Below, one piece after another: positions 5,196 to 48,172 of a DNA stretch of 64,000 nt. Within the stretch, counting starts at the first letter, position 1; each line of letters opens with the position of its first letter. Made by a program: the position numbers and the translations under genes. Source of the DNA: Mesostigma viride (taxonomy: Eukaryota; Streptophyta; Mesostigmatophyceae; Mesostigmatales; Mesostigmataceae); the NCBI GenBank assembly GCA_009746045.1, contig RPFO01000017.1:1999521-2063520 (forward strand). The letters are read 5' to 3'. The notes beneath the pieces are model-generated. The model was not told the origin of the DNA, made no database searches, and saw only the letters and a list, made by a program, of their open reading frames with translations.

Positions 5196-5341
5196 ATTAA
5201 TGACGCTTGTCGTTCTTGTTTGATGCCCATCGTTTTCGTCGTGTCTTTAATGGTGATTATTTATCATTACTCATCCTCAGGGCTTTCGGTGCCGCGGGAT
5301 TAAGAGGCGAAAAAAATCAGCTGCCGTCTGACCAAAGTCTG

Positions 5342-8300: not shown

Positions 8301-8690
8301 GAGTCCTACTCTGGTGATGAGTCCCACGATCCAGATCATCCATATTGGCTAGCGGAAGTCTTGCAGGAGCCTTATCAGGTGGCCGCTACTTTCGTGAGGC
8401 GAGTGGCCGACAGAAACGGCAAGGTCGATAGGGAGTTGTTCCGTAAGGGACAATGGGTGGTGGGGGTGCGCTACTGGGACAGATTTCCGGGTATGGCGAC
8501 GATGTTCAAAATGGACGCCGATGCGCAAGCTGAACAGCCAAACTTGGTCAATTGCTACCTGTGCATGGACGCGGGGTTCGAACACACCATTGTTGTCAAC
8601 CCAGCTAACAATCGCCAGGCCATCTTGACCATTCCGACAGACGTCGAGAAACGGCTCACGAACTTGGCCAAGAAGAGACCTGTTGAGTAG
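5342..8690 (+). CDS. DDE-like transposase gene of an uncharacterised eukaryotic family, three exons
   Basis: Exons 5342-6838, 6992-7795 and 7959-8690 join in frame to about 1010 codons, ending in TAG. Both junctions are GT-AG, and both splices restore a continuous reading frame with plausible sequence. The start is the first in-frame ATG; upstream exons remain possible because an acceptor-like CAG ends at 5280. A Cys/His cluster (CACQHH, then CECGPECHAC) lies near residues 320-350. A probable RNase H-like catalytic core contains HTDYAENYQ, WSDNCSMQFKSRN and GEQHGKGEVDGAGG. This order of an acidic-AENY block, an SDx2Sx2FK block and an HGKGxVDGxGG block is one I associate with a widespread, poorly named family of transposase-like proteins in eukaryotes. 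The family assignment is from memory and the catalytic acids are inferred. The last exon encodes a PYWLAEV segment that may be a chromatin-reader-like tail. No terminal inverted repeats were found, so it could also be a domesticated copy. Confidence 0.6.
6839..6991 (+). other. Intron 1 of the DDE-like gene, internally duplicated, with a palindromic 18-mer
   Basis: It starts GTAATTTTTAG and ends TTTCTACAG; its length is 153 bp (51 codons with no stop, so it also reads through). A 72-bp segment is tandemly duplicated (6824-6895 and 6896-6967). The duplication brings a second copy of the donor site and of GTTGCGCCCCAAGGCGTT (6857 and 6929). Confidence 0.7.
7796..7958 (+). other. Intron 2 of the DDE-like gene, carrying GTTACGCCGGCCGTCGTT
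   Basis: It starts GTAATTAAG and ends CGACGCGCAG; its length is 163 bp and its removal shifts the frame correctly into the last exon. The 18-mer at 7829-7846 is identical to the copies at 4871 and 5101 in the upstream tandem array. Confidence 0.75.
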
Positions 8691-25640: not shown

Positions 25641-26044
25641 CGTTCACGAAGCTTGCACAGCCCGCCAGCACAGGCGATTGAGAAAAAAATCCTTGCATGG
25701 CTCTACACCCAGTGCCGAATCCCGCCAACGCGAGTCTATCTTGACCAGCTACTACCAGCGCAGCTTCGGCGACATCCACAGAGAACTTTGGAACGCACTC
25801 AACGCCCCAGCCCCCGCACAGCCGGCAGCCCCATCGGCTTCCTCCCTCTGCAAGGATGACATCCGCGCAGTGCTGGAGGAGCACGTGACCTGGCCGCTGG
25901 CCGAGAAGATGACCTCGCTGAACACCACGCTCAACACGGTCGAGGCCCGGGTCTCCAACGTGGAAACCAAGGTCGTCCACAAGCTACAACCACAGTTCAC
26001 GGCGCTACACACCGCGGCGCAGGCTTCGGAAACGCATGCTGCAC
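25640..26044 (+). pseudogene. LINE ORF1 (second subfamily), 5' half before the copia-1 insertion
   Basis: An open frame (within 25624-26085) encodes a long helical stretch (EEHVTWPLAEKMTSLNTTLN, VEARVSNVETKVVHKLQPQF) expected to form a coiled coil. It is cut at 26044 by the copia-1 LTR. Skipping the element and one copy of the TGCAC target duplication, the frame continues at 33355 without a shift, so the host ORF was open when the element arrived. Confidence 0.75.
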
Positions 26045-26487
26045 AGTTAATAAACGAGTGGACCTCTCAATGCTCAATGGCCTAACGCATGTGTTTATTA
26101 CAATAAATCACAAGCCCCGCACCCAACGTGCACAAGGGCATTTAGCATTGTCGACAAGCAACGCTCTGCCTGGCTGCCACGTCTGGAGCAGCCGACAGTG
26201 GCCGTTGGGCTCTGTGGTGCAGCCTGAGTGGCGCGACGCCACTGCTAGACTCTCAGGACCTTAGTCCAACATCCGACACCTCAATGTCAGTCCCGAGTGG
26301 GTACTGGCGACGCCGTACCGCCAATCCTACTTGGGTACTGGCGTCCGTCACCAGGACTCGGCTATCGAATAGTCTAGCCTGCCGAATCACATATAGCCGG
26401 GACTTCTGACCGAGCCTACACGTGCGAAACCCCAGATAGCACATTGCTATCTGGTACTTAGCCTATGTCCACGACTAGAGGCTAACT
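26045..26487 (-). repeat. Copia-1 3' LTR
   Basis: 443 bp, plus-strand ends AGTTAATAAACGAG and GAGGCTAACT. It matches the other LTR except for one noticed difference (CCCAGATAGC here versus CCCAGAAAGC near 33297). Confidence 0.95.
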
Positions 26488-26525
26488 CCAGTTTTATTCT
26501 TTTTTTTTTTTTTTTTTTTTAAGGC
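26488..26525 (-). promoter_or_regulatory. Copia-1 polypurine tract (A-rich)
   Basis: On the minus strand a run of about 24 A followed by GAATAAAACTGG lies directly upstream of the 3' LTR. This is the position where the plus-strand primer of an LTR retrotransposon is expected. The unusually long homopolymer could also be a replication-slippage expansion. Confidence 0.55.
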
Positions 26526-26852
26526 ATCAGTGCTGCACCTCCAGTTTTTATTCCTTTTTGTTTTTTTCAGGTACTTGGCAATATCATGAATAAGACATTG
26601 GTACAGGAAAACTCATATCAGACCACAATGGACGTTGTGAATTAAAGCGCCCACAGACCCCATTGCCTTTAAATCTGACAGTGTCTTTGAGGTTTCTGAA
26701 CCTAGGATCCCCTGTTTGTACAAGTCAGTGGAGTGATGAGTGGCTATGGAAAAACCAGGGGGCACATCAAGAAATTATTATGTTTGTTGCCAAGTTGCCA
26801 CCAGCTGGGAAAGACCATAGTCTGCACCATTAGTCTGGAGTGCCCTATTTCA

Positions 26853-29800
26853 TCATCCATTTGTCTGACTAGACAGATAGGGATTCATTGCATCACACAG
26901 AAGCTGGTACTGGGTTGCTGCTAATGACGGAATCTTGGTCAATGCGTCAGCCAGGTTCTCCTCGTCTGGCAGATGCTGCCAGCTGGAAAAATAGCTTGTT
27001 TCCTGTTTCAAAATCACCCAGTCCAGATCAGTATGCACAGCAGCAGTCACAGATTTCTTGTTAAGGAAACTAATGACTGACTGACTGTCAGTGTGTAAGT
27101 GAGCATGCACATCAGCCTTGCTGCCAGCCTGAGTTTGCAACCAGGTTAGTATGTGCTGAAGGGATCGAGCATGCTGCACAGCAGACACCACAGCACGGCA
27201 CTCAGCAGAGTTACTGCCAACAGCTTTTCTGCGATGCAATCTGCTGTACCACGACACCATGGACATATAGTCTCCCTTGTTGGTAAGGAAGAACACCCCA
27301 GCCTCCCTGGCATCCATTTTTGTTATTACCCTACTCTCCATGGAGCTGTCCATCAGACAGTTAATGTGAATATCTTCCATGAGGTTGAGTGGATGAATGA
27401 CAAGGGAAGGTCCAGCCTTTAGTAGCTTCTGGAGATCCTTAGGTTTCATGGTTTGTAATACTGTGTCATCAATCCTGCTGACCACTGCCAGATGAGGTGC
27501 ACAGATAGCACTCAGCCACCCTAATTTTCCTTTGACAGTAGCACACATGTGAGCAGGAATGCACGGAATATCAAGCAGCTCTAGGCATTCTTCTAAGTAC
27601 TGGGCAGGCGGGGATAGAGTACACACCCACTGTTCCTGTTGCTCTTCCAGTGCTAGCATTATGCCACAGAACTGTAGGGGTTCTGGCCCCAGCTCTGTCT
27701 GCTTTCCAATCTCATATGACTGCTGAACCTGCTGAATGAACTTGTCAACTTCAGCTCTTGGTCCACAAATCAGTTGGTCATCACCATGCCACACAAACAG
27801 GAGCAAGCCAGAGGGTGTGGGCACAGCAAAGAGACAAGGGTCCAGATCATCATAAGTGGCATTAAGTTTCTTGAACACCTCTTCTGCTGATTTTCTGAAG
27901 ATAGTGGGAGCACTTTGCAAACCTTCCACCCCTAGATTTAGGAGTAGATATGGCTCATCAATATCATGTGCCCATGCAGCAGGGGTGGGAACCACATAGA
28001 CCTGACCCTTCCACACATCTTGCGCTTTATCAGGGTCCCCTCTAAGGAAAGCCCTTTTGATATCAGTAGCTTTGCAGGCATAATCTTGGCCAGCATTGAG
28101 ATGGTGGAGGAAGACAGAGAGCAGTATCCTGAGGGATGTTTGCTGCAGCCCAGGAGTGTAGAGTTCACCCTTGGACAGTTTTGACATGCCTTTTAATTCT
28201 GTCACACATGGCCTAGCATGATATATAGGTGAGCCTACTGGCTGTGCCTTGTGTTTTAGCACAAACTTGAGTCTCAACTTTTTGGCACCTTCTGGAATTT
28301 CCCAGACAGGAGTGACAGGTGGCTTATAGTCAGGATGCTTAGGGTTTGGCAGCACCCACTCTTCGCGGGCTTGGTGCCTAATGGCTTGGATCCATTTTTG
28401 AAACCCTTTTTGTGTTTTGCATTGTTGGATTAGAGCATCATAGTTGTGAGGAGAGTGCATGGCTAAGTCCCACTTTCCAACCCCAAAGGACTGCGGGTGT
28501 GGCCTTTGATTGTGCACCTTTTTCTCTAGGTCAGGGATTTCACCTGGCCCATATTTGATGTTAATGGCCTTGATATAGGCATCTAATCCATGAACCAGTT
28601 GGGACAATGGAATCTTGTAGTGATCCAAGGGAATGGCTCCTACCCCAGTCACACGCAGCTGGCTAGCAGTGATGGTGACACCTGGGTAAGAGATAAAGGG
28701 TTCTCCCAACAAAGCATTGCCCATGTACCCTTCCACTACCTGGAAAGGTGTCTGGATGCCAAGTATGGGGATCATTACTTGACCCAACACATCTAAGGTT
28801 GTTTTGCCTGAAAAATCTTGCACCTGTGTCCATGGTGAGGGTGCAAGTTGCAGACCAGGAATGGCTTGTGCACTGATCACACTGACCTGTGCCTGAGTGT
28901 CCACAGCTAGGATGCAGGATTCCTGGCTATAATCGGAGCACACAGCAGAGACCTTGGCCAAACCTGAGGCTTGTTTAGCCTTGCTCTTGTGAGCCTTATG
29001 CAGAGCTGCCAGGGCTTTTTCTAGCTTGGATTTGAACTCAGCTGGATTGCCTTTGTTTTGCTCTGGTACCTCATGCCTGGTTGAACTCTGCCCAGAGGGA
29101 CTTACACCAGGTTGTGGGGTGACACGTACCTCACTGAGGGGTGGAGGAATGACAGAGGGTGTGGTAGTGCCATCATCAGCTCCTGGTGTTGGAATGCTGG
29201 GTGGTTCTGCTTGCTCACCAGAGTTAAGGAGGGAATCCATGTTCAAGGACTCTTCCCCTGGCACGTCTGCCAAAGGAGGGAAATACTTCTTAACTCTATG
29301 ACTGCTCACCCTGTGTTTTCTCCCTGTTTCCAAACTTCGAATATCCATATTTTTTCCTTTTTTGGTCATTCTTAGAACAGTGCACGGACCATACCACATG
29401 CCTGTCTTGCCATGTTTGGTTTCTTTGAAATATAGGACTTGTTCACCCAGTTGGAATACTGTTCTGGGGTGTGTTATGTCCTTTTCAGCTAGCTTATCAG
29501 CCACTTTAGCTCTTACTGTGTTATACAGAGCTAATACCTCTGGAGGGTACACACCTGCCTGTAAGCCAATGGGAAGGATTTCCCCCCATGGTGCATGCAA
29601 CACAGGTCTAAGGTTAAGTGTAGCACAGATTTCACTGCACCACAGTGCTCTGTCAGCATAGCTTCCAGATGTGGCTTTCAGGTCAGTGGATTTCGCCACT
29701 AAAGTTTTGACTGACCTGATGGTTCTTTCAATGACACCCTGCCCTTCATGATCTTGCAATCCAGCAATCTCAATATTAGCATCCCATCCTTCACACTCAG

Positions 29801-30812
29801 CCAGACAGCTAAACTGTTGATCAAGCAGTATAGTGTCAACTGGGTAGAATCTGGGCAATGCTATCACAAGTGCTGCACGCAGTTGCTCTTTAGCCATGCC
29901 AGGTAGGGGTTCCATGACAGTGAATCTGGACCATGTGTCTTTTAGGATCAGATATTGTTCACCATCGATATGCACGACATCACCCACAATTATTCCCCTT
30001 TGGGTGGGTGGTGTTGCGACATGCCATTTGGGAGGTTTTGGGCCATGGAACTGACATTGCTGGCAGTGTTTTCTAGCCAACCTGACAGCATTCCTGAGTC
30101 GTGAACCTCCTGCTCTTCTGGCAATCTTTTCTGCCACCACCTCATGACCCATGGCTATGTGGAGCTGGGTTGCTAGTTCCCTTAAGTCTACTGTGTCAAC
30201 AGCAGCTGGGGTAAGAGCTTTGAGGTAGGGCAGTATCACATTATACGTGGAGGAGATTTTCTGAGCTGCCTCAAAATCTAGCAGTCCCTTGTCTTTATCC
30301 CCAATGATAATGAGATCATATAAATCCACATAGGCGTGCTGTGAGGACGTACATCCTTTTGGAGCCTTGTCCTGCCGGTCGCACCACGTGCCGGGGGGCA
30401 GATGGCGGGGGTGCTTGCAACCGAAGCAGAGGTCCACGTCGCCTACTGCGGGGTTCCACTTGCAGTCCGCCCGCTGGTGTCCCTTGGTGCCACACCGGGT
30501 GCACTTGTTCTTGGGACCTGCATGGGGGGCTGAGCAGTGGGTGCAGGGGTGGGTGGGGCAGGTGTGGGGGGGGTGGGCCGCCTCCACTGGTTTGGCTTGA
30601 GCTGAGCAGGCTGTCCCGGCTGGCCTTGGGGCTGGTTGCCCTTGGCCTTCTTGGACTGGCCGCCCTGCTGCCCCCCTAGCTGGCGCTTTTTTCCTTGCCC
30701 CTTCCCTTGGGTCTGTTGGACCTTGGGGGTTGGGGTTGCAGACGGAGCACCTATAGCCAGGGGAGTCAGGCAGTCTTGGATATGGTTCATCCCCGCCCGG
30801 AAATCGTTCCAC
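26853..30812 (-). CDS. pol: Copia-1 Pol polyprotein: integrase - protease-like - RT - RNase H
   Basis: The 1319-codon frame overlaps gag in the -1 frame. It begins usefully at the slippery site (codons 41-42, KK). Domains in order: a CCHC-like knuckle (CTRCGTKGHQRADC, about residue 108) and the integrase HHCC region (about 215-255). The integrase core acids are D283, D331 and E362 (EGQGVIERT), followed by its C-terminal part. A retropepsin-like domain follows, with AVDTQAQVSVIS (D638) and LLGEPFI. Next come the RT (ATDIKRAFLRGD; HGDD at 27777-27788, D1011/D1012) and the copia RNase H (SNSAECRAV, TDSQSVISF, LADALTK). In known copia elements the protease precedes integrase; here it follows. The active-site triplet is DTQ, not DTG/DSG, and the catalytic HGDD replaces YVDD. 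The D-to-E spacing in integrase is 30 residues rather than 35. All of this is visible in the sequence; the consequences are inference. Confidence 0.9.
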   Translation of the reverse strand: MERFPGGDEPYPRLPDSPGYRCSVCNPNPQGPTDPREGARKKAPARGAAGRPVQEGQGQPAPRPAGTACSAQAKPVEAAHPPHTCPTHPCTHCSAPHAGPKNKCTRCGTKGHQRADCKWNPAVGDVDLCFGCKHPRHLPPGTWCDRQDKAPKGCTSSQHAYVDLYDLIIIGDKDKGLLDFEAAQKISSTYNVILPYLKALTPAAVDTVDLRELATQLHIAMGHEVVAEKIARRAGGSRLRNAVRLARKHCQQCQFHGPKPPKWHVATPPTQRGIIVGDVVHIDGEQYLILKDTWSRFTVMEPLPGMAKEQLRAALVIALPRFYPVDTILLDQQFSCLAECEGWDANIEIAGLQDHEGQGVIERTIRSVKTLVAKSTDLKATSGSYADRALWCSEICATLNLRPVLHAPWGEILPIGLQAGVYPPEVLALYNTVRAKVADKLAEKDITHPRTVFQLGEQVLYFKETKHGKTGMWYGPCTVLRMTKKGKNMDIRSLETGRKHRVSSHRVKKYFPPLADVPGEESLNMDSLLNSGEQAEPPSIPTPGADDGTTTPSVIPPPLSEVRVTPQPGVSPSGQSSTRHEVPEQNKGNPAEFKSKLEKALAALHKAHKSKAKQASGLAKVSAVCSDYSQESCILAVDTQAQVSVISAQAIPGLQLAPSPWTQVQDFSGKTTLDVLGQVMIPILGIQTPFQVVEGYMGNALLGEPFISYPGVTITASQLRVTGVGAIPLDHYKIPLSQLVHGLDAYIKAINIKYGPGEIPDLEKKVHNQRPHPQSFGVGKWDLAMHSPHNYDALIQQCKTQKGFQKWIQAIRHQAREEWVLPNPKHPDYKPPVTPVWEIPEGAKKLRLKFVLKHKAQPVGSPIYHARPCVTELKGMSKLSKGELYTPGLQQTSLRILLSVFLHHLNAGQDYACKATDIKRAFLRGDPDKAQDVWKGQVYVVPTPAAWAHDIDEPYLLLNLGVEGLQSAPTIFRKSAEEVFKKLNATYDDLDPCLFAVPTPSGLLLFVWHGDDQLICGPRAEVDKFIQQVQQSYEIGKQTELGPEPLQFCGIMLALEEQQEQWVCTLSPPAQYLEECLELLDIPCIPAHMCATVKGKLGWLSAICAPHLAVVSRIDDTVLQTMKPKDLQKLLKAGPSLVIHPLNLMEDIHINCLMDSSMESRVITKMDAREAGVFFLTNKGDYMSMVSWYSRLHRRKAVGSNSAECRAVVSAVQHARSLQHILTWLQTQAGSKADVHAHLHTDSQSVISFLNKKSVTAAVHTDLDWVILKQETSYFSSWQHLPDEENLADALTKIPSLAATQYQLLCDAMNPYLSSQTNG

Positions 30813-32875
30813 AGAGGTTTGAGACCTGCAACCACAGTGGCGTACACAGCTTTGTCCAGGTTAGCATTTGACAACCATGAATACAGCAGGTAGCTAGCAG
30901 GCAGACCCCTGAGATCAGGGTCCTTTTCTACAGCCAACCTATAATTCTTGCAATCAGTGGCATAGTCTTGCTTGTTGACCTGGTAAGCATTAAGCCAGTT
31001 GAAACCACGGATGGATTCAAACTGTGTCCTATCCACCAGCAAGTGCTTAAGCTCATCCATGAAGGCTGGCCACAATGCAATTGCTAGGTTAGGTGTCCCA
31101 GCCTTTTCTTGGTAAATCTGGACCAAGGTTTTAATGGCTGGGGCTGACCTATGGATGGTGGTGGATGCACGCAAGGCACTGAACCAGTTCTGGACATTCA
31201 GAGACTCAAAACAGTAGTTCAGGCTAAACAAAAATTCCTTGGCCTGTTCCTGGGTGTAACCCTCAGGTAAGCCAGGGATTTCTATTTTAGATTCTTTTTG
31301 TTTTGGGTTAAACGTACCTTTGACCGGGTCCTTCTTTTCAGCCAAGAAAGTCTTGACTGCTTGTTGAAGATCAGCCTCCTCCATGTTCGCCCTGCCCCTT
31401 TCCAGCTGGGAGATACTGGCCAGGAGGCCATCCAGCTGGGTGCGCGACAGGTCGTCCATGGGGTTGGTGGCCATGGTCTTGAGCTGTGCCGTGAGTATGG
31501 CAAGCAGCTCTTGGACGTCCCCCTTAAGGGTGGGTGGGGTTGGGTCCACTGGGGTCCCTTTTGCCACCGCCTTGCTCTTATCTGACTGCCCTGGTGTGGG
31601 TGCAGTCTGCTGGGCCTCCGCAGAAGGTGGTTGTGTTCCAGCTTGCTGTGCTAGTGCAGTGGCTGGTGGTGTTCCAGCTGCAGGCGCAGGGTCTTGTTCC
31701 CCTTGCCTTACTCCACTGCTGGTAGGAAAACCCTTGGCCTGGCCAAGCTGCTGCAGCGCTGCTGCTTGGGCTGCCAGGCCGCCCTCACGGGCTATCATGG
31801 CCTCTAGGAGTTTATTCTCCACCACCTTGCGGCGGTGGAGCTCCTGGGCATCCGGGTCACTTGGGGGTTTGCTGGGGGAGCTGGGGACAGTGCCCTGGCT
31901 CTTGCCCTGCAGCACCCTTGGTGACACGGCCCCTCCAACCACCCTTTGGCTCAAATCAGTGCCAGGGGTGGGGAGGGTATGTGCAGGGAGTGCAGGCGTT
32001 TCTGTTGCCTGCATCTTCTCCTGCAGCTTGGTCAGCTGCAACAGGAGGGAATTGAGTTGGTCCGCTGTTAGCGTGACCCCCTCGTCCCCCTGTGCAACAA
32101 CCAGCTCATTGAAGAGGCGCTCATGGAGCACCTCTCCAGCTTGCATGGCAGCCAGCTGCTTTTCAGCAGTCATGTTGCGGGCCGCTGTCTTTTTGCGGTC
32201 CCGCTCTTGCTGTGCAAGACGGCGTGCCTCTACAAACTGGGCGGCGGCCTGTTCGACCGCCTGATTGAGTGGATTCATCTCAATCTCCCCATCAGAAACC
32301 CCTGGGGAGAGGGTGACCTCGTCATCAGACAGCTGAATGCTGCCGATGACGGGTCCTGGGACCTTCTTGGTCCGCATTTTGAACATGTATGCGTCCCTCT
32401 TCAGCTTCCTCTCGTACCCCCCCGCTTTCTGAGCGGATGAGGGGACGATCGGCACCCCCGCTTGTTCTCCACCGCTTTTGGCTATTCCGCCCTCCTCCTG
32501 AGGAGGTTGGGACGGTGCCTTAGCGGGGAGGTCAGCGGGGCTTGCCTGAGGGCTGGGGGACCGCATACTGCTTACGGATTTTTGCGAGCTAGCTGGGCTA
32601 GAAAAAACAGATTTTTCGGCCTGTTCGGCCAAGGAGGTTACCTGTTTTTGCAGGGCTGCCAGCTGCCGCTCTTGGGCGGCTGCCTTGACGCTTTGCTGAG
32701 CCATTGCTGTCGCTAGCTGCCTAGCCACTAGCTGTTCCTGCTCCGCCTGCGCCCTTCTTGCTTTTTTAATTTTCTTGGCCGCAGCCTTCTCCTCTACTGT
32801 TGGCACCGTCTGCCAGCCAGCATCATCTATCCGCTTCTTTTTGAATTTCAGGCCTGGCATAATAGGATCTCCCAT
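30443..32875 (-). CDS. gag: Copia-1 Gag
   Basis: An 810-codon frame starts at an ATG just inside the 5' LTR (32 bp away). The N-terminus is basic (KFKKKRIDDAGW) and is followed by an Ala/Gln/Lys-rich helical stretch likely to be a coiled coil (roughly residues 25-90). A Pro/Ser/Gln-rich linker runs to about residue 470. The conserved capsid-like core (IEIPGLPEGYTQEQAKEFLF through SWLSNANLDKAVYATVVAGL) occupies about 550-690. The tail is Gly/Gln/Lys-rich. No aspartic protease motif lies in Gag, so the only protease candidate is the one in Pol. At 810 residues it is longer than usual copia Gag. Unshifted translation ends at 30443; the shifted product continues as Gag-Pol. Confidence 0.85.
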   Translation of the reverse strand: MGDPIMPGLKFKKKRIDDAGWQTVPTVEEKAAAKKIKKARRAQAEQEQLVARQLATAMAQQSVKAAAQERQLAALQKQVTSLAEQAEKSVFSSPASSQKSVSSMRSPSPQASPADLPAKAPSQPPQEEGGIAKSGGEQAGVPIVPSSAQKAGGYERKLKRDAYMFKMRTKKVPGPVIGSIQLSDDEVTLSPGVSDGEIEMNPLNQAVEQAAAQFVEARRLAQQERDRKKTAARNMTAEKQLAAMQAGEVLHERLFNELVVAQGDEGVTLTADQLNSLLLQLTKLQEKMQATETPALPAHTLPTPGTDLSQRVVGGAVSPRVLQGKSQGTVPSSPSKPPSDPDAQELHRRKVVENKLLEAMIAREGGLAAQAAALQQLGQAKGFPTSSGVRQGEQDPAPAAGTPPATALAQQAGTQPPSAEAQQTAPTPGQSDKSKAVAKGTPVDPTPPTLKGDVQELLAILTAQLKTMATNPMDDLSRTQLDGLLASISQLERGRANMEEADLQQAVKTFLAEKKDPVKGTFNPKQKESKIEIPGLPEGYTQEQAKEFLFSLNYCFESLNVQNWFSALRASTTIHRSAPAIKTLVQIYQEKAGTPNLAIALWPAFMDELKHLLVDRTQFESIRGFNWLNAYQVNKQDYATDCKNYRLAVEKDPDLRGLPASYLLYSWLSNANLDKAVYATVVAGLKPLWNDFRAGMNHIQDCLTPLAIGAPSATPTPKVQQTQGKGQGKKRQLGGQQGGQSKKAKGNQPQGQPGQPAQLKPNQWRRPTPPTPAPPTPAPTAQPPMQVPRTSAPGVAPRDTSGRTASGTPQ
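30686..30692 (-). promoter_or_regulatory. -1 ribosomal frameshift slippery heptamer A AAA AAG
   Basis: In the gag frame the codons read GGA AAA AAG CGC, so the heptamer A AAA AAG has the correct X XXY YYZ phasing. Slipping back one base puts ribosomes exactly into the pol frame (AAA AAA GCG CCA). The site lies in the 370-nt gag-pol overlap, 728 codons into gag. A downstream stimulatory structure is possible in the GC-rich sequence that follows but was not computed. Confidence 0.75.
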
Positions 32876-32906
32876 GATTTTGTCTATGGTAAACGACTTT
32901 AATTCA

Positions 32907-33349
32907 AGTTAATAAACGAGTGGACCTCTCAATGCTCAATGGCCTAACGCATGTGTTTATTACAATAAATCACAAGCCCCGCACCCAACGTGCACAAGGG
33001 CATTTAGCATTGTCGACAAGCAACGCTCTGCCTGGCTGCCACGTCTGGAGCAGCCGACAGTGGCCGTTGGGCTCTGTGGTGCAGCCTGAGTGGCGCGACG
33101 CCACTGCTAGACTCTCAGGACCTTAGTCCAACATCCGACACCTCAATGTCAGTCCCGAGTGGGTACTGGCGACGCCGTACCGCCAATCCTACTTGGGTAC
33201 TGGCGTCCGTCACCAGGACTCGGCTATCGAATAGTCTAGCCTGCCGAATCACATATAGCCGGGACTTCTGACCGAGCCTACACGTGCGAAACCCCAGAAA
33301 GCACATTGCTATCTGGTACTTAGCCTATGTCCACGACTAGAGGCTAACT
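32907..33349 (-). repeat. Copia-1 5' LTR
   Basis: 443 bp with AGTTA and TAACT ends. The TGCAC target duplication follows at 33350-33354. Confidence 0.95.
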
Positions 33350-33354
33350 TGCAC

Positions 33355-35704: not shown

Positions 35705-36125
35705 TCAGGCCCGGCACTGAACGCAAATGGTTTTCACCTTTGCGGAGTGCCTGATCAGAATATACGCTTGGCTGATTTCGATAGTACCGGCTACGCCCCC
35801 TTCTAATAAAAGAAGGATCCAGCCGTGTTCAGCCCGTCTCACGTTGCGAGACTGAACAAGTCTCGCGTGCAGACACCTGTGTAGTACTCCTACACACAGA
35901 TCTCGAGTGATTTATCTAGTACCAAATCCGAAAGGCTAGCTTGCATCACTCCCCGGACAGGAGAACTTTTGCGGATGACTGTAGGTGTAAGTTGGCGATG
36001 CCATGGTAACCGGAGGTCTACGTCCGTCCTATATAGTCAGCGAAAGTTGGTGCGAGAGGTCCCCAGTTCGATTCCGGTCGGATTCATTTGCAGATCGCGT
36101 TTTTCCGCGTTTTCCGCGGCCCGGC
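35705..36125 (+). repeat. SINE-like element with tRNA-like region, left part
   Basis: It starts with a copy of its own 3' end (about 50 bp: GGCACTGAACGCAAATGG to TGATCAGAA), then about 170 bp of unique sequence. The body follows from 35925 (AATCCGAAAGGC). The body holds a pol III box-B-like AGTTCGATTCC (36065-36075) and a weak box-A-like TATAGTCAGCG, as in tRNA-derived SINEs. It is cut at the CCGGC (36121-36125) duplicated by copia-2. The rest lies at 44572-44622. The whole is flanked by the 8-bp duplication ATGTCATG. Confidence 0.7.
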
Positions 36126-36772
36126 AGTTAGCGAACAGCCAGAACTGTGAGTTCCTGGTCTCTCGCGCCACACAACGGGATGAGCCAAAGTTGCAAAGGC
36201 AGCAACCTTTTAACCCGTGCACCAAGCCACGACCACGGTGAGCGGTTCCACGACCAATGTGGGAGCCTCGGTTCGTGCTTGCCAAGATAGCTGGTCATCC
36301 CCCATGACCAAGCTATATCCTTTGCGTTGTTCCTCCTTCCCATCGGCGTGACGAGGCACGTGCAGGCATGCAAGCAAATCCCCAACGTCCACTGGCATCA
36401 GTGCAGAGCCAGGACGAACTGGATTTGCCTAGACTCTGCAACCTAGGAAGTACAGGACCTGTCACAAGCCTGCAAGGCCTAGTATCCTTGCAGACCTGTG
36501 CCAGTCCTGTATTCCACCAGCCACAGGCTGCTGCTCCTCTGGTCTACGTGGACCACAGTCACGTGATAGTCAGGCTAAGCCTGTGCAGGCACGGCCTGCC
36601 ACGTGTCCTGTCCACTATACCAGAGGACTGTACCTAGTCGGCCACGGACGGCTAGGACTTCGGGACCTCATATCTTTCTCGTCCCTTGTCTGTTTCAGGC
36701 GGTCAGCACGGCGTTGGAAAGGTCTTTCCAAACTGCATCCACTTAGCATATTGGTTGCCCAAAATGCTAACT
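36126..36772 (-). repeat. Copia-2 3' LTR
   Basis: 647 bp. The polypurine tract AAAAGAAGAAAGGG (minus strand, about 36777-36790) lies directly upstream of it in element orientation. Confidence 0.93.
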
Positions 36773-37781
36773 CCAACCCTTTCTTCTTTTGGAGCTGGAC
36801 CAGCTTGAAACAAGCCTAACCTTGCTTGTGCCCACTCAGCCACAGACCGCTTGGTCCCTTGAGGTTGATCAGACCTTTGAGGGCCCAGGTTCCTGCCTCC
36901 TTTGGGTAACAACATATCTGCCCTTGGACCAGGCTAGGTGTACTGGCCAGTGAATCAGAGGTCACCCCAGGTTATCCCCTGACCCCTTGGTCAGCTCCCA
37001 ACCTTTCCTTGGGAACTTGGTGCTGGATTAAAGTCAAGGCACATTACCTAGTCCAATGGCTGGGATTACAGGATGCCAAGAACGTACTATTGTGAGTTCC
37101 TGATCTTTCACAGTTATCACAGGCGCCCGTTCTTATGGCGCCCGCCTTGGCCAGCCTTTCCCTTTTGCTCAAAGAGACTCAGGTAGCACCTGCACAAATA
37201 CTGCCTTATTGGGGAGCCCATGTCTTCACTGGGTGTTAAGCCCAGGAATCACTCATGCCAGGCTGTGGCTCTGCTGGGGAATTGAACCCCACCCCAACCT
37301 CCAGGTTTATAGGTGACCTGGAACTTTACACAAGAGAAACATTACAACCATGAGAACAACATGAGAATGACATGACATGATTATGTTTTATTCAAGCATT
37401 ATATAACCCAGAATGTGGCCCCCTGGCAACCATGTTCCACATGGTCACACAACCAGGTTCTTTATTAGCAACAGGTTGGAAACAAGCACTAGAAAACATA
37501 TGTACAGCAACCTGTAAGAACCAACATTCGGGTTGCCCTTGCATGGCCTAACTGTTTGAGGCCAAAGGCGTCGACTTAAGTCCTGGCGACTCTTCTGAAC
37601 CCCATGGGGAGGGCCAGGCATGATTCTCAGCTGGTAGGAGTGACATTCCACACCAACTCCTGTCCAGGAGGGTGTACCTAACCCTGAAGGACCGGCTGTC
37701 AACCAGTAAGCACCAGTCACCACTTGGTACTTTGGTCAAGCAGCCCACTGGGGACACCCAAGCTGAAGCAAGGCCTGGTCT
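36773..37781 (-). other. Copia-2 long 3' untranslated region
   Basis: About 1 kb between the RNase H stop and the 3' LTR without a supported ORF. It is markedly longer than the roughly 365 bp in copia-1 and ends in the polypurine tract. Confidence 0.6.
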
Positions 37782-38447
37782 CTATGGCCGCCCGTGTAAG
37801 GGGTCCATGAGCCCACGGAGCAGGGGGTACTGCCTCTCCGCCTTCTCCTCCAGCTTGGTGAGGGCATCTGCAGGGTTGTCCACACCAGGCACATGTTCAA
37901 TGTGAGCTAGGTAGGACATCTCCTTGAGCAACAAGTAGTCAAGGTCCCTGCTCCTGGCCAGCTGCCTGTGCACAAATTGCACCATGCCCATGCTATCAGT
38001 CCTCACCAGTGTGTGCAGCTGCAACCTACAGGAAGCCACTTGACATAGCTGGTAGAAGAGCTCCCTCAAGTAAAGAGCAGTATGCAGCCCTTCACAGATT
38101 GCCCTGCACTCAGCAATATCACTGCTGGGTGTAACCCTGTTCTGCAACCGACTGTACCAGGTAACAAGTGAGGTGTGATCTTGCTCCAGGGTAACTAATG
38201 CTGCTGCCCTGCCCCTGACCTCTGTGACCTTCCTATTGTCCATAGAACTGTCCACATAGAGAACCATGTCAAGGGGCTTGTACAAATCCACAGGACCCAG
38301 TATGAGAGGGGGAGACATCATGACAGCCTGCACCACACTCTCAGCACCCACCTCAACCAGCTGGGAATCAGTAAGTCGACTCAGAACCAGCAAGTCAGGG
38401 GCACATATACTTGCAAGCCATGCCAGCATGCCCTGATGGTAGCACAC
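37782..38447 (-). pseudogene. pol: Copia-2 RNase H region (separate frame)
   Basis: A 221-codon frame with copia RNase H landmarks: VLYVDSSMDNRK, SDIAECRAICEGL, VRTDSMGMVQFV and NPADALTK. It overlaps the RT frame by about 50 nt in a different phase, so one indel near 38430 separates RT from RNase H. Confidence 0.8.
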
Positions 38448-40230
38448 CTAGCCTGCGTGATGGGCTCCTGCAATGCATCACAATCTGCTGTGGGTAGTCC
38501 TTACCACCCTCCATCCTGATGAACCACGAGCCCTTGGCTTGGAACAACGTAGCCTGCATGCCACAGAAGACCATAGGCTCATTCTCCACCATGTGCTGTA
38601 TCTTACCCAGCTCAAACCGCTTCTGGATCTTAGCCAAGACAGCCTCAACCCAGTCTGGTGGACCTATGAGATGCAGGTCATCACCATGCAGTGAGGCAAA
38701 GACAGGAAGGCCATTGTGGGACCCTTGGAACAAACAGGGATCCACTGGAGACACAGAAAACCCACAAGTACTCTTCAAGAACTTCTCTAGGCTCTTTCTC
38801 CAGATAATGGGACTGGACCTGAGACCTTCCAACCCTTTCAGAATTCTCAGGTACCTGGCCTTTATCTCTGCTCTCCATACAGCAGGTACAGTCACAAAGA
38901 AAGGAGGGATATCTCTCCAAGTCTGCCTAGCCTGATCTTGGTCACCCTTGAGAAAAGCCCTCTTGAAATCAATCAGCACAGAGCTATAGGGCACACCCTT
39001 AACCAGAAAAGACAGAAATATACACAGCAGAATCCTCCACGTGTCATGCAGCATCCCTGGAGTATAGAGCTCCTCATCTAACAACTGGCCAGTGCCATGA
39101 TACTCGGTTACAACTGGTCTGACATGTGGCACCTGGACACCATCAACCTCCTTGAGCTTGAGGACAAACATCAATCTGAGCAGCTGGTGAACTTCTGGCA
39201 GCTCATCCACAGGTTCTGCACAGTTGGAAACTATCCACTCATGCCCAGAAGCAACAAAGCCAAGAGTCCATGCCTTAGCCATCTTGGGGCTTTGCATCAT
39301 CTCGACTAGCTGGCGCCAGGGAATAGGACTGTGAGCAGCTATCTGGTACCTGTTTACCCCTAACTGCCTTGGATCAAAGGTGGTTGGGATTATCAACAAG
39401 TCCTCAGCTATGGGCTCCTGACCTTGAGGACCCTCAGCTGGCTGACTCCTAACAGCCTTCACCGCCACTGCAAGACCCTGGGAATAGTGATATCTTTCAA
39501 GGGGGAGGCTGCCCCTGCCTTCTAGTGCCAACTCATCAGAGGTCAAAGTAACCCCTGGCATGCACAAGAAGTTCTGACCCAGAATGGCAGGCCCCTTATA
39601 GCCCTCTACCACACAGAACGTGGTGGGCACCCCTAAGATAGGCACACTCACTTCCCCAAGGATCTTCATGGACACCTTTCCTGAGAAATCAGACACAGCA
39701 AGGCAACTGGGATGGGACATCTGTAAGCCTACAGCATCCTCTTCCCTGATGACAGACACCTGTGAGTTGGTATCTACCTCCATTGTAGCTGCCCAGCACG
39801 ACCCCCACCCCGTGAGCTTGGATACCTTGGGATCATGTTTGCTGCGCATGAGTGCTCGGATGACGTCCGCCATGAGAGGCCCCCGGGCCTTAGGTGGCTG
39901 CCCCGTCCCCTCTGGCCTTGTGACAGTTGCTTCAGCAGCCTCCTGCTCGTCATCTTCCAGCAGGGACAGACCATCATCCACCACCAGAGGATTGTTAGCT
40001 GCTGCTGCCTGGCTCTGGCCTGGCTCCTCAACCCAGCTGGGAGGGCCTGGCCCGTCTGCAGGCCAGATTGCATGTGGCCTTCTTTCCTTGACATGAGCCC
40101 AGGACAACCTGTACACGTGCCTTGGATCCTTTTCCAAAGCCACCAGGCAAGATCTGTTAGCTTCTCCACACGAGTGACAACCCCATCCTGCCACTTCCCC
40201 CGCTTGCCTGGAATAGATGGTTCCTTCCAC
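38395..40230 (-). pseudogene. pol: Copia-2 protease-like and RT region
   Basis: The 611-codon frame carries the retropepsin-like block VDTNSQVSVI (about residue 150) and ILGQNFL. RT follows with LIDFKRAFLKGD and LHGDDLHLIGP, the HGDD variant also seen in copia-1. The protease-like domain again follows integrase and precedes RT. The active-site triplet is DTN here and DTQ in copia-1. Confidence 0.85.
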
Positions 40231-40980
40231 ATCCTGACCTTCAGCCCCACCTGAGGCCTCAGCACATTCCAGTTCTTGTCCTTACGTCTCAGCTGGGCAA
40301 ATAACCTATCTGCCTTCCTAAGACTGGCCTGCACCACGTTCTCAGGCAACAAGCTATACTGCAGGGCCAGGGGAGAGACAGCCACACCATCAAAGTAATA
40401 GTTAACCCTGTGGTTCAGCTGCTCTTCTATCCCCTTACACCAGGCTGCCCTCTCTAAGGCAGATGCCACAAGTGGCACTGACTCTGCTGCTAGCACCACT
40501 GTCTTCACTTCACGTATGGATCTCTCTACAGCCCCTTGCTGCCCATGACTCTCCCTGGGGACTACTACCAGCTTACAAGGCAGCTGGTCCTGATGCTTGA
40601 GCAAACAGTCAAACTGCAAGTCTGCCTGCACACTCTTGCACACCCCAAAGCCTGGGATCAGGGCCTTCATACCCAACAACAAGTGGTGCTCCTGCATACC
40701 AGGCAGAACGTCTATCAGCCTGTATCTGCTGAACCTGTCCACCCCCACCAATATATACAAGCCCCTGATATGCTGGATATCCATCTGGATGTCGCCACGC
40801 TCCCTAGCAGGCTCCCTAGCATGGGACTGAGGTGGGTGAACAGCATTCTCCTGGCAACCACAGTTCTCAGCAGCAGCCTGGCAGCCTCCCACAAAGGCTC
40901 CCTACCTAGCTTCCAAGCAAACATTGCTGCCTGCCCAGAATGCCCAAACATGTGATGCAACTATGGCCAGCCTCAGCATA
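39774..40980 (-). pseudogene. pol: Copia-2 integrase region
   Basis: The main frame starts near 40892. It contains the catalytic candidates D in IQMDIQHI, D in VQADLQFD and E in GAVERSIREVK; D and E are separated by 31 residues. The upstream HHCC part (MFGHSGQAAMF, 40960-40900) is one frame away, and the C-terminal part shifts into the PR-RT frame near 40200. Confidence 0.8.
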
Positions 40981-41343
40981 GCTCAGCACTCTGTCAGTAC
41001 TGACCTGGCGAGACGTCTGAACCGTGTGTGGGGACACATGATCCACTCCTGAGGTTCCAGGGCTTCCCTGCAGGCCATCCTGACGCCCCAAGTCAGGTCC
41101 TGCACCCTGGACCGCTCCAGGCCCTTCCAGCAAGGTCCCTTGGCCCTCCAGGCCAGCACCTGCTGGAGACCCACCACCTGCATGAGGCATAGGGAATTCA
41201 GCTGCAGCATTGTTATTGCAATCCAGTGGAAGAACAACATCTTTACACCCTTGGTGCTGCACAAGGGGCACACCCCCATCCTTATGTACATCCAGCACAC
41301 CTTCCCCAAGGGGTGATTGACTATTTACAGGGGATGATGCTAG

Positions 41344-42689
41344 TCACTGCTGCCCAGACTGGCCCCCTGCCCCAGCAGGCTTGGCCTTCCTGTCAGGACA
41401 CTCACGACGCCAGTGACCTTCCTTGCCACACACAAAGCATGCCCACCCTTCTTCCCAGACCCAGCCCCACCCTTGCCAGGCTTCCCTGGCCTCCCTGAGA
41501 CTGTCCACCCTGCTTGCCCTGGTTGCCTTGAGCTTGGCCCTTGCCTTGCCCTTGGCCACCCTTACCCTGCTGACCACCAGCTTGCTGGCTCCCAACCCCT
41601 CCTTGGGAACCTGCACCCTTGCCACCCTGAGCCCCCTGCCTCTGGCGCCTGAAGCGCTTACGCTTGTTGGGCCTTGCCCCATCACGGGCTGGGTACCCGG
41701 GGACATCACCTTGGCCCTGCACAGCGGAGGTGGCATTGCTGCCATGGGACTGGATAGCTTTGCAGGCAGGATCTGGCTTCCTTATGCTGAGGATTACAAG
41801 CTCCAGAGCACGCAAGGAGCCATCAGTCTGGTTAAGAAACATGCGGGCACCGTTTCCTCCCATCCACACTCAAACCCATACGGTCCAGGAAATAGTCTGC
41901 CAAGGCCCTATCTGTGACCAGGAAGCCATACTTGGCCCCCTTGTCCCTGATACGGTTGAGCCTAGCCCATTCCTCTGCCACAGGGCCCACTATCTCAAAG
42001 GTGTCATACTGATGTTTAATAGTTGGTGAGGTTGAGAACCTTGTCAGAGAACTCCTCCCTCAACCCTCCAGGAACTGTGCCCAGGTTAGCTTATCCTTGA
42101 CAGCAGTCCTAGCCTTTCCCTGACACGCTCTGACGAGTCCCTGTTGCACGTGGACGAGTGAAACACTTGCACTAGGTTGACAGTGGGGTCCACGGAGCAC
42201 ACAACAAGCTCCATGTCCTCAAGCCACTTGTCTAAGCTTCCTGTGCTAGTGGTGGGTTAAGAGGCTTTTGACCATTCATAACAGTGACAGCACTCATGTG
42301 AGGTCTCGACCCTGGCAGCGCCTTCACTGGCTCCACCACAGCGGGTGTCACAACAACACCACTTGGTCCAGCAGGCACAGGGGAGAGCACATCCACGTGA
42401 GGCCTCTTACCATTGCCGTCAGCGGAGGGTCCCTCTTACGCTTCTCCACGGCAGGTTGCCCATTTGCCACCGTTATTGCATCCGTTGGCCCTGTTGCCCG
42501 CACCTTGCGCGCCTCCTCCACCGCGTCTTCATGCCGTCTCTTGCCGCCTGGTCTCTTTCCCCCATCGCCGTCGCTGGCTGGGATCGCCTCTCCCACCAGC
42601 TGCTCCTTGTCTTGCCGAGGCTCCTGGCTTGCTCCAGCCGGTGCCTCCATCTCGCCCTTGTCGCCGTCTCCCGGTTTGCCACGAGGCAT
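41344..42689 (-). pseudogene. gag: Copia-2 Gag, broken
   Basis: An ATG at 42689 opens a Lys/Arg/Glu-rich N-terminus (MPRGKPGDGDKGEMEAP). The capsid-like core is spread over frames at about 42350-41900 (LDKWLEDMELVVCSVDPTVN). A Gly/Gln/Lys-rich tail and a CCHC zinc knuckle (CFVCGKEGHWRREC, near 41430) are readable in the 41745-41344 frame. Several indels separate these pieces. Confidence 0.7.
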
Positions 42690-42741
42690 TATATACAGTG
42701 GGAGGACAAAACAAAACAGGCGACAGACAAGGAAAACTGGC

Positions 42742-43767
42742 TCAAGCGCTGGTGCTGCCTGAAGAAGCCGCTGGCCGTTCCTCAGCTATGGCCTCCTCCT
42801 CACGCTCCTGCGCTGTGCGCGCCACCGGTGTCCCTACGCGCGGAACTGAACGGACCTCCTCCGCGTTGTAAGGACCTAATACCCGGCTCACCGGCCTCCC
42901 GGCTGGTGTCTGCTCCACCGGCAGCCTAGGCGCACTACCACGGCGATACCACTGCAGGTTCCTGACCCACCGACTGCCACCACCCCGCCTGTCGTTCCGT
43001 GACCCCCGACCAATCTCAGCGAAGTCGTGTTCTGGCTCAAACGGGATATGCAACTCCGCCCTACGCCGAGCTGAGTAGCCCTCGTTTGTGCCGTCCCCTT
43101 CGTCAATCTGCTGTGACGAACGAGCTATGATGCCCGTGGGGCGATCCACGAACTCGCTGTGAAAATCCTCGTCGGTGACGTCCCGACCGGTGATGACTGT
43201 CACCGTTGGCCCACACGCCCCCGGCCTGCTTTGCAACCTCGGTGTATCCAAGGTCGACCAAATGCCGGCTGGTCGTGTCGTGATCACCCAGTGATCGGCG
43301 TGACCACGCGCCTCTTGGGTCAAGATATTGACCAGGTGCTCACACGTCTGAGCTACCACTTCAGCCGAATCCCACGGACTGTCGGCTTCACGCGTCTGCG
43401 CGTCCCGTATAATATGTGACGCGTCGGTCCCCTCCCCCAGCGAGCTTGTCGCCACCCAGTGGTTGTACAATCTGGTACCACCTAAACAAATGGCCACCAG
43501 CTGGCCCAGCGTTTCACGCGCTAAGTCCAGCGCCTGAATGGTGACGTGCCCGCCCTGGTACGCGACCTCCAAACTGTAGATCAACGAAGCTATTTCGTCG
43601 CGAATAGCGACAAGCCGCTCCGTGCAGACCCGACCCGTCTCCCCTGGCGACGTCGTCGCCCTTATCCTCATCACCACTGGGTCGTTTGCCGACGGCCCTG
43701 CTGCGTTTCCAAACACAGCAACCCAACCTCCTTCCGCAAGACCCCTCGCAACGTAGGCGGCCTGCAC
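42742..43767 (-). CDS. Copia-2 extra ORF between 5' LTR and gag, unknown function
   Basis: This open frame of about 341 codons has no counterpart in copia-1. It may start further upstream: an ATG at 43916 (MSAEARVETPESS) is one frame away, which implies an indel or a start within the frame. Visible features are an Ala/Gly-rich N-terminal part (VQAAYVARGLAEGGW), a central acidic-basic stretch, and an Arg-rich segment (SRNDRRGGGSRWVRNLQWYR). I recognise no family. It is the longest unbroken frame upstream of pol in an otherwise broken element and has higher GC than gag. It could be an acquired host sequence or an element-specific accessory protein (inference). Confidence 0.5.
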   Translation of the reverse strand: MQAAYVARGLAEGGWVAVFGNAAGPSANDPVVMRIRATTSPGETGRVCTERLVAIRDEIASLIYSLEVAYQGGHVTIQALDLARETLGQLVAICLGGTRLYNHWVATSSLGEGTDASHIIRDAQTREADSPWDSAEVVAQTCEHLVNILTQEARGHADHWVITTRPAGIWSTLDTPRLQSRPGACGPTVTVITGRDVTDEDFHSEFVDRPTGIIARSSQQIDEGDGTNEGYSARRRAELHIPFEPEHDFAEIGRGSRNDRRGGGSRWVRNLQWYRRGSAPRLPVEQTPAGRPVSRVLGPYNAEEVRSVPRVGTPVARTAQEREEEAIAEERPAASSGSTSA

Positions 43768-43923
43768 AAACGTAGAAGCGTTGGATGGGTGGGAATAGGG
43801 GAAAAACGCGTTCTCGCGCGCTGGCGCCTCGGGAGCTGCTTCGTGCCCGGGGATGACTCAGGTGTCTCGACCCGAGCCTCGGCCGACATGAAAAACCTTG
43901 CACAACAGAAATGCAATAGTACG

Positions 43924-44571
43924 AGTTAGCGAACAGCCAGAACTGTGAGTTCCTGGTCTCTCGCGCCACACAACGGGATGAGCCAAAGTTGCAAAGGCAG
44001 CAACCTTTTAACCCGTGCACCAAGCCACGACCACGGTGAGCGGTTCCACGACCAATGTGGGAGCCTCGGTTCGTGCTTGCCAAGATAGCTGGTCATCCCC
44101 CATGACCAAGCTATATCCTTTGCGTTGTTCCTCGTTCCCATCGGCGTGACGAGGCACGTGCAGGCATGCAAGCAAATCCTCAACGTCCACTGGCATCAGT
44201 GCAGAGCCAGGACGAACTGGATTTGCCTAGACTCTGCAACCTAGGAAGTACAGGACCTGTCACAAGCCTGCAAGGCCTAGTATCCTTGCAGACCTGTGCC
44301 AGCCCTGTATTCCACCAGCCACAGGCTGCTGCTCCTCTGGCCTACGTGGACCACAGTCACGTGATAGTCAGGCTAAGCCTGTGCAGGCACGGCCTGCCAC
44401 GTGTCCTGTCCACTATACCAGAGGACTGTACCTTAGTCGGCCACGGACGGCTAGGACTTCGGGACCTCATATCTTTCTCGTCCCTTGTCTGTTTCAGGCG
44501 GTCAGCACGGCGTTGGAAAGGTCTTTCCAAACTGCATCCACTTAGCATATTGGTTGCCCAAAATGCTAACT
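43924..44571 (-). repeat. Copia-2 5' LTR
   Basis: 648 bp. It differs from the other LTR at only a handful of positions noticed by eye (for example CTCGTTCCC versus CTCCTTCCC, and one extra T in GTACCTTAGTC). Confidence 0.93.
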
Positions 44572-44622
44572 CCGGCACTGAACGCAAATGGTTTTCACCT
44601 TTGCGGAGTGCCTGATCAGAAA
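44572..44622 (+). repeat. SINE-like element, right part (3' end)
   Basis: It begins with the second CCGGC and runs through ACTGAACGCAAATGG to TGATCAGAAA. The LINE target duplication ATGTCATG follows (44623-44630). Confidence 0.8.
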
Positions 44623-46419: not shown

Positions 46420-48007
46420 ATGAGTAGTTCGAAGACACAATCACATTTACCCCCTACTAATCAAGGTGCAAGCGACCCGTCATCATCTCTTGAACCCATT
46501 GCTAGGGAAGGTGCTGAGACAACTACTCGTACTCCACGGCGTCAACTTGATTTCAACCGTACTTCTATGTCTGAAGTGAGGCGGCCCTCGTTGTCCATAG
46601 GGCCCAAGTTTTCCGTCATTGCATCTGGTCTCCAACCAGGCGAACCATCGCTGACAGGCGTGGGTCGAGGAGCGTCACTGTCGCCCAGGATTCCAAGCGC
46701 GCGAACGAGTCCTGTGCGAGTGCATCATCTTCATTTCTTTTCCCGCTAAATACCACGCCTGGAAGAGACGGGACCAGACTTGCAGCGGATCGCCTCTCAG
46801 CAGCTAAAATCAGATTATTACACGATGAACAACACGCAGCGATGTATAGAAAGATGGTGGAGGAGGTGGAACAGGATGTGGGAAGACTTCGTCAGAGAAT
46901 TGAGGAGGAGGAGGCGGCCATGCGTGACATGGTTGCTGGATTGGGGAGAGAGGCTCCTCGGTTGGGTGACGGAAGGGTTTTACCTAATAGTACCGCAGTT
47001 ACTACGAGGAATGAGACGCAGGATAGCGATAGGCAGGATCCAGCGCAGACGACCTCGGTCACCTTCACCACCCCCGCCAGCGACGTCCCGTGACCGTCAC
47101 TATACCACCGCATCAAGGTTCCGCCCCGCCATTTCCAAAAATCGAATCCGTAGACAAGCTGTCGCTCACCAATCTAACCCACCGCAGTTTCGATCATTTC
47201 TCTACTCGATTCCAGGATGTGTTCGCTATCCACTTTGCTAACTACGGCAAACGAGCGGAAGAACGACTTTCCCTGGACATCCAGAAGAAGATGGTTCGAC
47301 AGCGAATGAGCGACAGTGCAGCCGACAGGTTTGATGAGTTTTTACGATCCTCGGCAGGTAATACTTGCAAGGATTTGCCATCTCTCATGCTTTCATTTCG
47401 ACGTTTTCTCCTTCCCCAGGACCAGCTCCGTCTGGACCGGGACGCGTTGGCCAACTGTACTCAGTCAGGCCTGACACTACCACAATATGTGGAGACGTTT
47501 ACCAACCTGAGGGCCAAAATCCCCCAGTGCTCTGATTCTGAAGCTCTTCACAGGTTTCTGCATGGGCTCTCCCCTCAAGTCAGGGTGGATATTGACAAGC
47601 ATTTCTCCCCTTTCGACTATGTCGAGTGGAAGTGGGATACTGTGCTGTCTTATGCCCTCACGCTGTGCCGTGTCCCTGACTTTTCCCTCAAGTGGGAGCC
47701 TGCTGCAGGCAACCAGGCGTCTGCTGTTAAGAAGCCCCTGAACCAGCTGAACGCTGTGATGGAGGAGCTCAGTGCCATGGAGCAGTCTAAAGGAGCCTGT
47801 TTCACGTGTGGCCAGCTAGGACACTTTGCACGGGATTGCCCCAAGCGAGACCAGTTTCCAGGCGACACCAAGGGTCCTCAGGGGGTGCTTCCATTCACCA
47901 GACCATCCACCCTCCCTCCTGGGGTGAGCCAGAGCGACCACAGGGCACAGCCCGGGTTTAGACCCAACTTCCAGGCTTCGGGCAAGGGACCATTCCAGCC
48001 CAATTAA
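46420..48007 (+). pseudogene. gag: Gypsy Gag, frameshifted
   Basis: Three frames cover it: 46420-46749 (Ser/Thr/Pro-rich N-terminus), 46842-47093 (acidic coiled coil, EEVEQDVGRLRQRIEEEEAA) and 47090-48007. The last holds a retrotransposon Gag capsid region (FSTRFQDVFAIHFANYG to FLHGLSPQVRVDIDKHF) and a CCHC zinc knuckle, CFTCGQLGHFARDC (about residue 232). Indels near 46720 and 47090 separate the parts. Confidence 0.8.
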
Positions 48008-48172
48008 GGGCTTCAGCAGGCAAGACAGGCGTCGGATGGTCAACGCCCTGTGGCACCTCCTAGCAGAGGAGGAGGAGGGAGAAGGGGAGGCAGACGGCAT
48101 AGAGGAGCAGCAGGTGCAGCCTTCAGTGGGGAGCTCGTCTTCAGATCACCCTCCTGAGCTGCCAAAAAACTA

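Follow-up and report, generated by a model that had tools for sequence, protein, structure and literature searches.

Two related long terminal repeat retrotransposon families in Mesostigma viride carry a protease-like domain between integrase and a copia-type reverse transcriptase

Can the protease and integrase of a copia-type retrotransposon exchange places within Pol, and would the displaced domain still act as a protease? The question is raised by a long terminal repeat (LTR) retrotransposon, here element 1, on the minus strand of a 64,000-nucleotide stretch of the streptophyte Mesostigma viride (the window; contig RPFO01000017.1 of assembly GCA_009746045.1, positions 1,999,521 to 2,063,520, forward strand). 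An earlier note on this DNA had read from element 1 the order Gag, zinc knuckle, integrase (IN), retropepsin-like protease (PR), reverse transcriptase (RT) and ribonuclease H (RNase H, RH). Our analysis upholds this order, and the same Pol order recurs in a second family, element 2, which the note did not contain and which we located by searching the window with element 1 Pol (tblastn E 1.6e-103 for the protease-RT part plus RNase H and 9.4e-21 for integrase). Our best explanation, held with moderate confidence, is that the two families belong to a single lineage of LTR retrotransposons that has a copia-type RT and a Pol made up, in this order, of integrase, a retropepsin-derived domain (perhaps an atypical protease), RT and RNase H.

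The boundaries of element 1 are exactly as first described: its two 443-bp LTRs differ at a single position and are flanked by an exact 5-bp duplication, GTGCA (Table 1). The best Pfam matches of its Gag have E values of 3.4 and 3.8, neither noteworthy. The Pol frame lies −1 relative to Gag and is stop-free back to 30860, the nearest upstream stop being at 30861-30863. RT is the one domain of Pol with a profile match above the curated cut-off (RVT_2), which, together with the integrase residues D278, D331 and E362, bears out the claim of a copia-type RT with integrase ahead of it. Searched alone, the integrase of element 1 retrieved no Pfam family at E≤10. Its alignment with element 2 retains two cysteines and the D/D/E triad, the two histidines falling outside the part that aligns in element 2. 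The earlier note had named D283 as the first catalytic aspartate; this must be corrected to D278, because element 2 retains that aspartate and has an arginine in place of D283. The integrase C-terminal module (WYGPCTVLR..HRVSSHRVKKY) is presumably, by eye, nearer the GPY/F module of gypsy elements than the copia integrase tail. No RNase H profile matched element 1, and the whole Pol gave two further weak and unrelated Pfam matches, PH_17 and IMPa_N_2.

Over 650 aligned columns (2 of which are a GG preceding the LTR), the LTRs of element 2 differ by 4 mismatches and 1 gap, and the ends of the element are supported by an uninterrupted copy of the host repeat elsewhere in the window, in which the duplicated GCCGG occurs once. 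The host is a dispersed repeat, present as partial copies at 35711-35763, 36001-36126, 44572-44621 and 59689-59849, element 2 being inserted in one of them. The proteins of element 2 follow in the order integrase, protease-like domain plus RT, RNase H. Its reading frame is broken near the integrase C-terminus, before the protease-RT part, and a second time after RT, ahead of RNase H. The last part of the integrase module (..RHVYRLSWAHVK..) continues, as judged by eye, in the protease-RT frame, from which we conclude that integrase is directly joined to the protease-like domain in element 2 as well.

The two families are diverged. Comparison by blastp gave identities of 36% (protease-like domain and RT), 35% and 31%, and untrimmed alignments gave 42% for the protease-like domain (129 columns), 41% for RT, 35% for RNase H and 31% for integrase. 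A chance rearrangement of one copy is therefore unlikely, the same Pol order being found at 31-42% identity, and the placing of integrase before the protease-like domain appears, from these alignments, to be a trait of the lineage rather than an accident of a single copy. Both elements also share LTR ends AGTTAGC..TAACT, 5-bp duplications and an HGDD in RT motif C (27777-27788 and 38677-38688, minus strand), a motif that in copia RTs is usually YVDD.

What, then, is the domain between integrase and RT? Isolated from either element, it matches gag-asp_proteas as the sole Pfam family at E≤10, at E 0.0043 in element 1 (positions 12-90 of 92) and 0.045 in element 2 (11-90 of 92), and both families carry the hallmarks D-T-x-x-Q-V-S-V-I and [LI]LGxxF[IL]. 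Of the stop-free frames in the window that reach 125 aa, 97 in all with those of the elements included, just 2 matched gag-asp_proteas at E≤0.1 (best 1.3e-8); the scan gave counts, not names, and we take the two to be element 1 Pol and the protease frame of a gypsy-type element. The latter, at 47033-49324 on the plus strand, has Retrotrans_gag, a CCHC knuckle and a protease with the canonical IDSGAG motif, followed by the beginning of a Ty3-like RT. As far as sequence can tell, the middle domain is likely to be of retropepsin origin.

Several results weigh against this reading. The gag-asp_proteas scores, 18.1 bits in element 1 and 14.8 bits in element 2, lie under the curated cut-off of 28.2, and the match fades in longer sequence, to E 0.092 (residues 635-707) in the whole Pol of element 1, while the 611-aa frame of element 2 has no protease match at E≤0.1. 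The domain also weakly matches acetylornithine transaminase (NCBIfam E 0.042; PDB profile E 0.51), and a PDB profile search with it returned no protease among the matches. Matches of a chance type, as good as these or better, occurred elsewhere, RNase H meeting beta-lactamase models at E 5.9e-5 and IMPa_N_2 at E 0.01, and among the matches listed (25 of the 38 families) several domains of unknown function matched other frames of the window. Comparison with the one gypsy protease in the window was not significant: hhalign gave a probability of 0.2%, 123 of 2000 shuffles equalled an alignment that had the two aspartates in register, 22 of 2000 equalled one on a non-equivalent stretch, and 39 of 100 column shuffles did as well. 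AlphaFold models had predicted local distance difference test scores of 36.9 (two sequences) and 33.1 (gypsy protease added), which is very low confidence. Finally, the D[ST]G catalytic loop reads DTQ in element 1 and DTN in element 2, the glycine being replaced in both.

The earlier note had proposed profile searches and structure prediction as checks. The profiles give RVT_2 above its cut-off, a sub-threshold gag-asp_proteas and no match for integrase or RNase H in element 1, and the models point neither to a barrel nor to any other fold. Its claim of a retropepsin-like domain between integrase and RT is thus carried by a match in register in both families, at sub-threshold scores and with models that are uninformative about the fold. 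A second correction concerns the motif at D638, which reads DTQ: its aspartate and threonine stand in both families, and the glycine does not.

If the domain does cut, it would be an unusual aspartic protease in lacking the glycine of the catalytic loop. The proteases of endogenous retrovirus-K offer a partial parallel: in one study the residues seen in place of this glycine are R, E, D, V and A, with no instance of Q or N, and the variants are classed, by prediction, as potentially active in some cases and inactive in others (PMC6058741). The scan for another protease agreed with the earlier note in showing no protease motif ahead of integrase, and it showed none in Gag. D[ST]G is absent from the Gag and Pol frames of element 1 (3 occurrences across all three minus-strand frames of its internal region), and its 4 occurrences across the minus-strand frames of the internal region of element 2 include none in the assigned gag-like, integrase, protease-RT and RNase H frames, the coding frame at ~40.9-42.7 kb being unsettled. 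Since the assigned frames of both elements lack D[ST]G, the search leaves the middle domain as the one candidate for a protease.

One alternative is that the middle domain is a retropepsin-derived pseudoprotease, retained for the folding or dimerization of an IN-RT polyprotein that either depends on a host enzyme for its processing or stays uncut. Besides the replacement of the glycine by Q or N in the two families, the degree of conservation speaks for this. Identity of the protease-like domain rises to 47% once it is trimmed to the domain (codon pairs 21-121). With this trimming, integrase trimmed to codon pairs 5-225, and RT and RNase H taken whole, the ratio of synonymous to nonsynonymous differences (pS/pN) was 2.21 for the protease-like domain, 1.66 for RT, 1.86 for RNase H and 1.64 for integrase, values matched by none of 500 shuffled pairings in each case; synonymous sites are close to saturation, so the ratios are qualitative, a further point on the side of doubt. 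Judged on this one pair of families, the protease-like domain appears at least as conserved as RT, 'better' hinging on the trimming, whereas a plant survey reports that the protease domain is more variable than RT, RNase H and integrase (PMC6317226). Such conservation, which counts for our main explanation too, is evidence of function but not of proteolysis. On the other side, both families retain the aspartate and threonine of the motif, no other protease candidate was found, and both replacements of the glycine are amides, as though chemistry at this position still counted. We regard the pseudoprotease as unlikely, if a serious contender.

A second alternative is that Pol 628-735 is not a retropepsin at all, the element having lost its protease and the region being a linker or adaptor fold specific to the lineage. 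The sub-threshold profiles, the weak transaminase match, the low-confidence AlphaFold models and the failure of the PDB search to return a protease would all fit such a fold. It would leave unaccounted for that a single retropepsin model matches both families across almost its full length, with D-T-x-x-Q-V-S-V-I and [LI]LGxxF[IL] in place, and we consider it improbable. The broken frames of element 2 might be cited for a third view, in which a dead copy was rearranged once or misassembled to give this order. It is scarcely credible, since element 1 has uninterrupted frames and near-identical LTRs and a diverged second family has the same order, and here we concur with the earlier note. Our confidence in a lineage with a retropepsin-derived domain between integrase and RT is reduced by the transaminase matches and by the fact that the edge in conservation varies with the trimming.

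How would such an element work? Its life cycle would otherwise be an ordinary one. A single transcript driven by the LTR would be translated into Gag and, after a −1 shift probably at A_AAA_AAG, into Gag-Pol. The 81 nt 3′ of this heptamer fold no better than shuffled sequence (z −0.08), so that the site is a candidate only, and a second heptamer in phase with Gag, C_CCC_CCC, lies in the overlap of Gag and Pol; both observations count against the proposed shift. Within particles, the RNA would be copied by RT and RNase H, and integrase would insert the copy with a 5-bp stagger and AG..CT ends. The displaced domain would most likely still be the sole protease, active in dimeric form and with its catalytic loop changed to D-T-[QN], a role that we rate above that of a structural pseudoprotease.

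Priming was approached through the leaders (32876-32906 and 43864-43923, minus strand), that of element 1 being only 31 nt long between the 5′ LTR and Gag. In neither element do the 30 nt that follow the 5′ LTR contain TGG, the complement of a tRNA 3′ end, an internal-tRNA primer being conceivable, and the 45 nt next to the LTR share no match of at least 8 bases with it in either element, as self-priming might have required.

Table 1. Features of the two elements in window coordinates
Feature	Position	Strand	Remarks
Element 1, complete LTR retrotransposon, 7305 bp	26045-33349	-	
Element 1 5′ LTR, 443 bp, ends AGTTAGCC..TTAACT	32907-33349	-	
Element 1 3′ LTR, 443 bp	26045-26487	-	1 mismatch vs 5′ LTR
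Element 1 target site duplication GTGCA, 5′ side	33350-33354	-	
Element 1 target site duplication GTGCA, 3′ side	26040-26044	-	
Element 1 Gag frame, 810 aa	30443-32875	-	intact
Element 1 Pol frame, 1319 aa	26853-30812	-	intact
A_AAA_AAG heptamer, Gag phase	30686-30692	-	candidate −1 frameshift site
C_CCC_CCC, second X_XXY_YYZ heptamer, Gag phase	30566-30572	-	within Gag/Pol overlap
Element 1 CCHC zinc knuckle, Pol 104-117	30462-30503	-	Pfam E 0.025 (match 102-118), below cut-off
Element 1 integrase, H218/H223/C250/C253 and D278/D331/E362	29727-30161	-	residues and alignment to element 2
Element 1 integrase C-terminal module	29262-29405	-	
Element 1 retropepsin-like domain, Pol 628-735	28608-28931	-	D638-T-Q-A and LLGEPFI
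Element 1 RT, copia type, Pol 837-1037	27702-28304	-	RVT_2 E 7.5e-9, above cut-off
Element 1 RNase H, D1155/E1204/D1242/D1289	26862-27539	-	all four kept in element 2
Element 2, related LTR retrotransposon family	36126-44571	-	broken frames
Element 2 5′ LTR, ends AGTTAGC..GCTAACT	43924-44571	-	
Element 2 3′ LTR	36126-36772	-	
Element 2 target site duplication GCCGG, 5′ side	44572-44576	-	
Element 2 target site duplication GCCGG, 3′ side	36121-36125	-	
Unbroken copy of repeat hosting element 2	59689-59849	.	93-96% identical; GCCGG once
Element 2 CCHC zinc knuckle	41395-41442	-	E 1.6e-6
Element 2 integrase frame	39777-40901	-	triad kept; rve E 0.014, below cut-off
Element 2 retropepsin-like domain	39478-39804	-	DTNS and ILGQNFL
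Element 2 protease-like and RT frame	38398-40281	-	
Element 2 RT, HGDD	38578-39192	-	RVT_2 E 8.2e-5, 22.8 bits, below cut-off of 31.6
Element 2 RNase H	37785-38447	-	RVT_3 E 0.051, below cut-off

The rest of the window holds further repeats and reading frames. The scan of 97 frames also found RT_RNaseH_2, Integrase_H2C2 and rve, in frames that it did not name. A frame at 9332-11254 (plus strand) with RVT_1 (E 2.2e-7) and YMDD is probably a fragment of a non-LTR retrotransposon, and a 1036-aa frame at 5207-8317 (plus strand), which has no Pfam match at E≤0.1, contains HTDYAENY and SDNCSMQFK, suggesting by eye a DDE-type transposase. Tandem arrays with units of 71/139 bp, 30 bp and 118 bp lie at 3-2330, 58944-59196 and 60077-60282, with CCTGAGATTT-type runs. 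No tRNA was found in the window, nor any Rfam match at the gathering score.

Where do the two families belong? With Ty1/copia they share the RVT_2-type RT, an integrase ahead of RT (from its zinc-binding residues and D278/D331/E362, with sub-threshold profile support in element 2 alone), RNase H in last place and a 5-bp duplication; both have the LTRs and a target duplication within the 4-6 bp expected of LTR retrotransposons. They differ from Ty1/copia in that the protease-like domain follows integrase in both elements rather than preceding it, in DTQ or DTN for D[ST]G, in HGDD and in LTR ends of AG..CT, neither element having the TG..CA that is usual, if not universal, in LTR retrotransposons. 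We do not file them as orthodox Ty1/copia, because the defining order is absent. Element 1 seems to work like a copia retrotransposon, and its atypical ends, its HGDD and the existence of a second family point toward the undescribed copia lineage that the earlier note had thought possible. That this is a new and deep lineage of LTR retrotransposons, defined by a third Pol order (IN-PR-RT-RH), AG..CT ends and a retropepsin with a D-T-[QN] loop, is a tentative proposal, possible rather than probable.

Displaced domains and unusual ends each have precedents. The gypsy elements REM1 of Chlamydomonas and Gmr1 are grouped by one study with copia among the elements whose integrase has to be shifted before they can be aligned (PMC2774666); as described there, they share a displaced Pol domain with the present elements, the difference being that a gypsy integrase is displaced in them whereas here protease and integrase are exchanged alongside an RVT_2 RT. 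Troyka LTR retrotransposons, proposed as sister to the gypsy/retrovirus group, likewise have ends other than TG..CA throughout the lineage, CG..CG with 3-bp duplications as against AG..CT with 5 bp here (PMC12440569). We found no description of an IN-PR-RT order in the literature searched, a coverage outside which fall most subscription journals and Repbase. Pattern matches in viral contigs (9, 44, 91, 84 and 26) and genome contigs (13 and 54) yielded no relative confirmed by tblastn, and phages and plasmids gave no match; these collections, being viral, prokaryotic and plasmid, say little about eukaryotes.

The order of domains in Pol is a main character in the classification of LTR retroelements. 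One survey, of 5410 and 8453 elements, states that all elements with an unexpected domain order were discarded as likely mispredictions (PMC6317226); if the present reading is true, surveys that filter on order would discard elements of this kind in the same way. A recently mobile lineage in which integrase and protease had traded places would show that polyprotein processing does not dictate the order, and would allow a test of which order of cleavage a retroelement needs.

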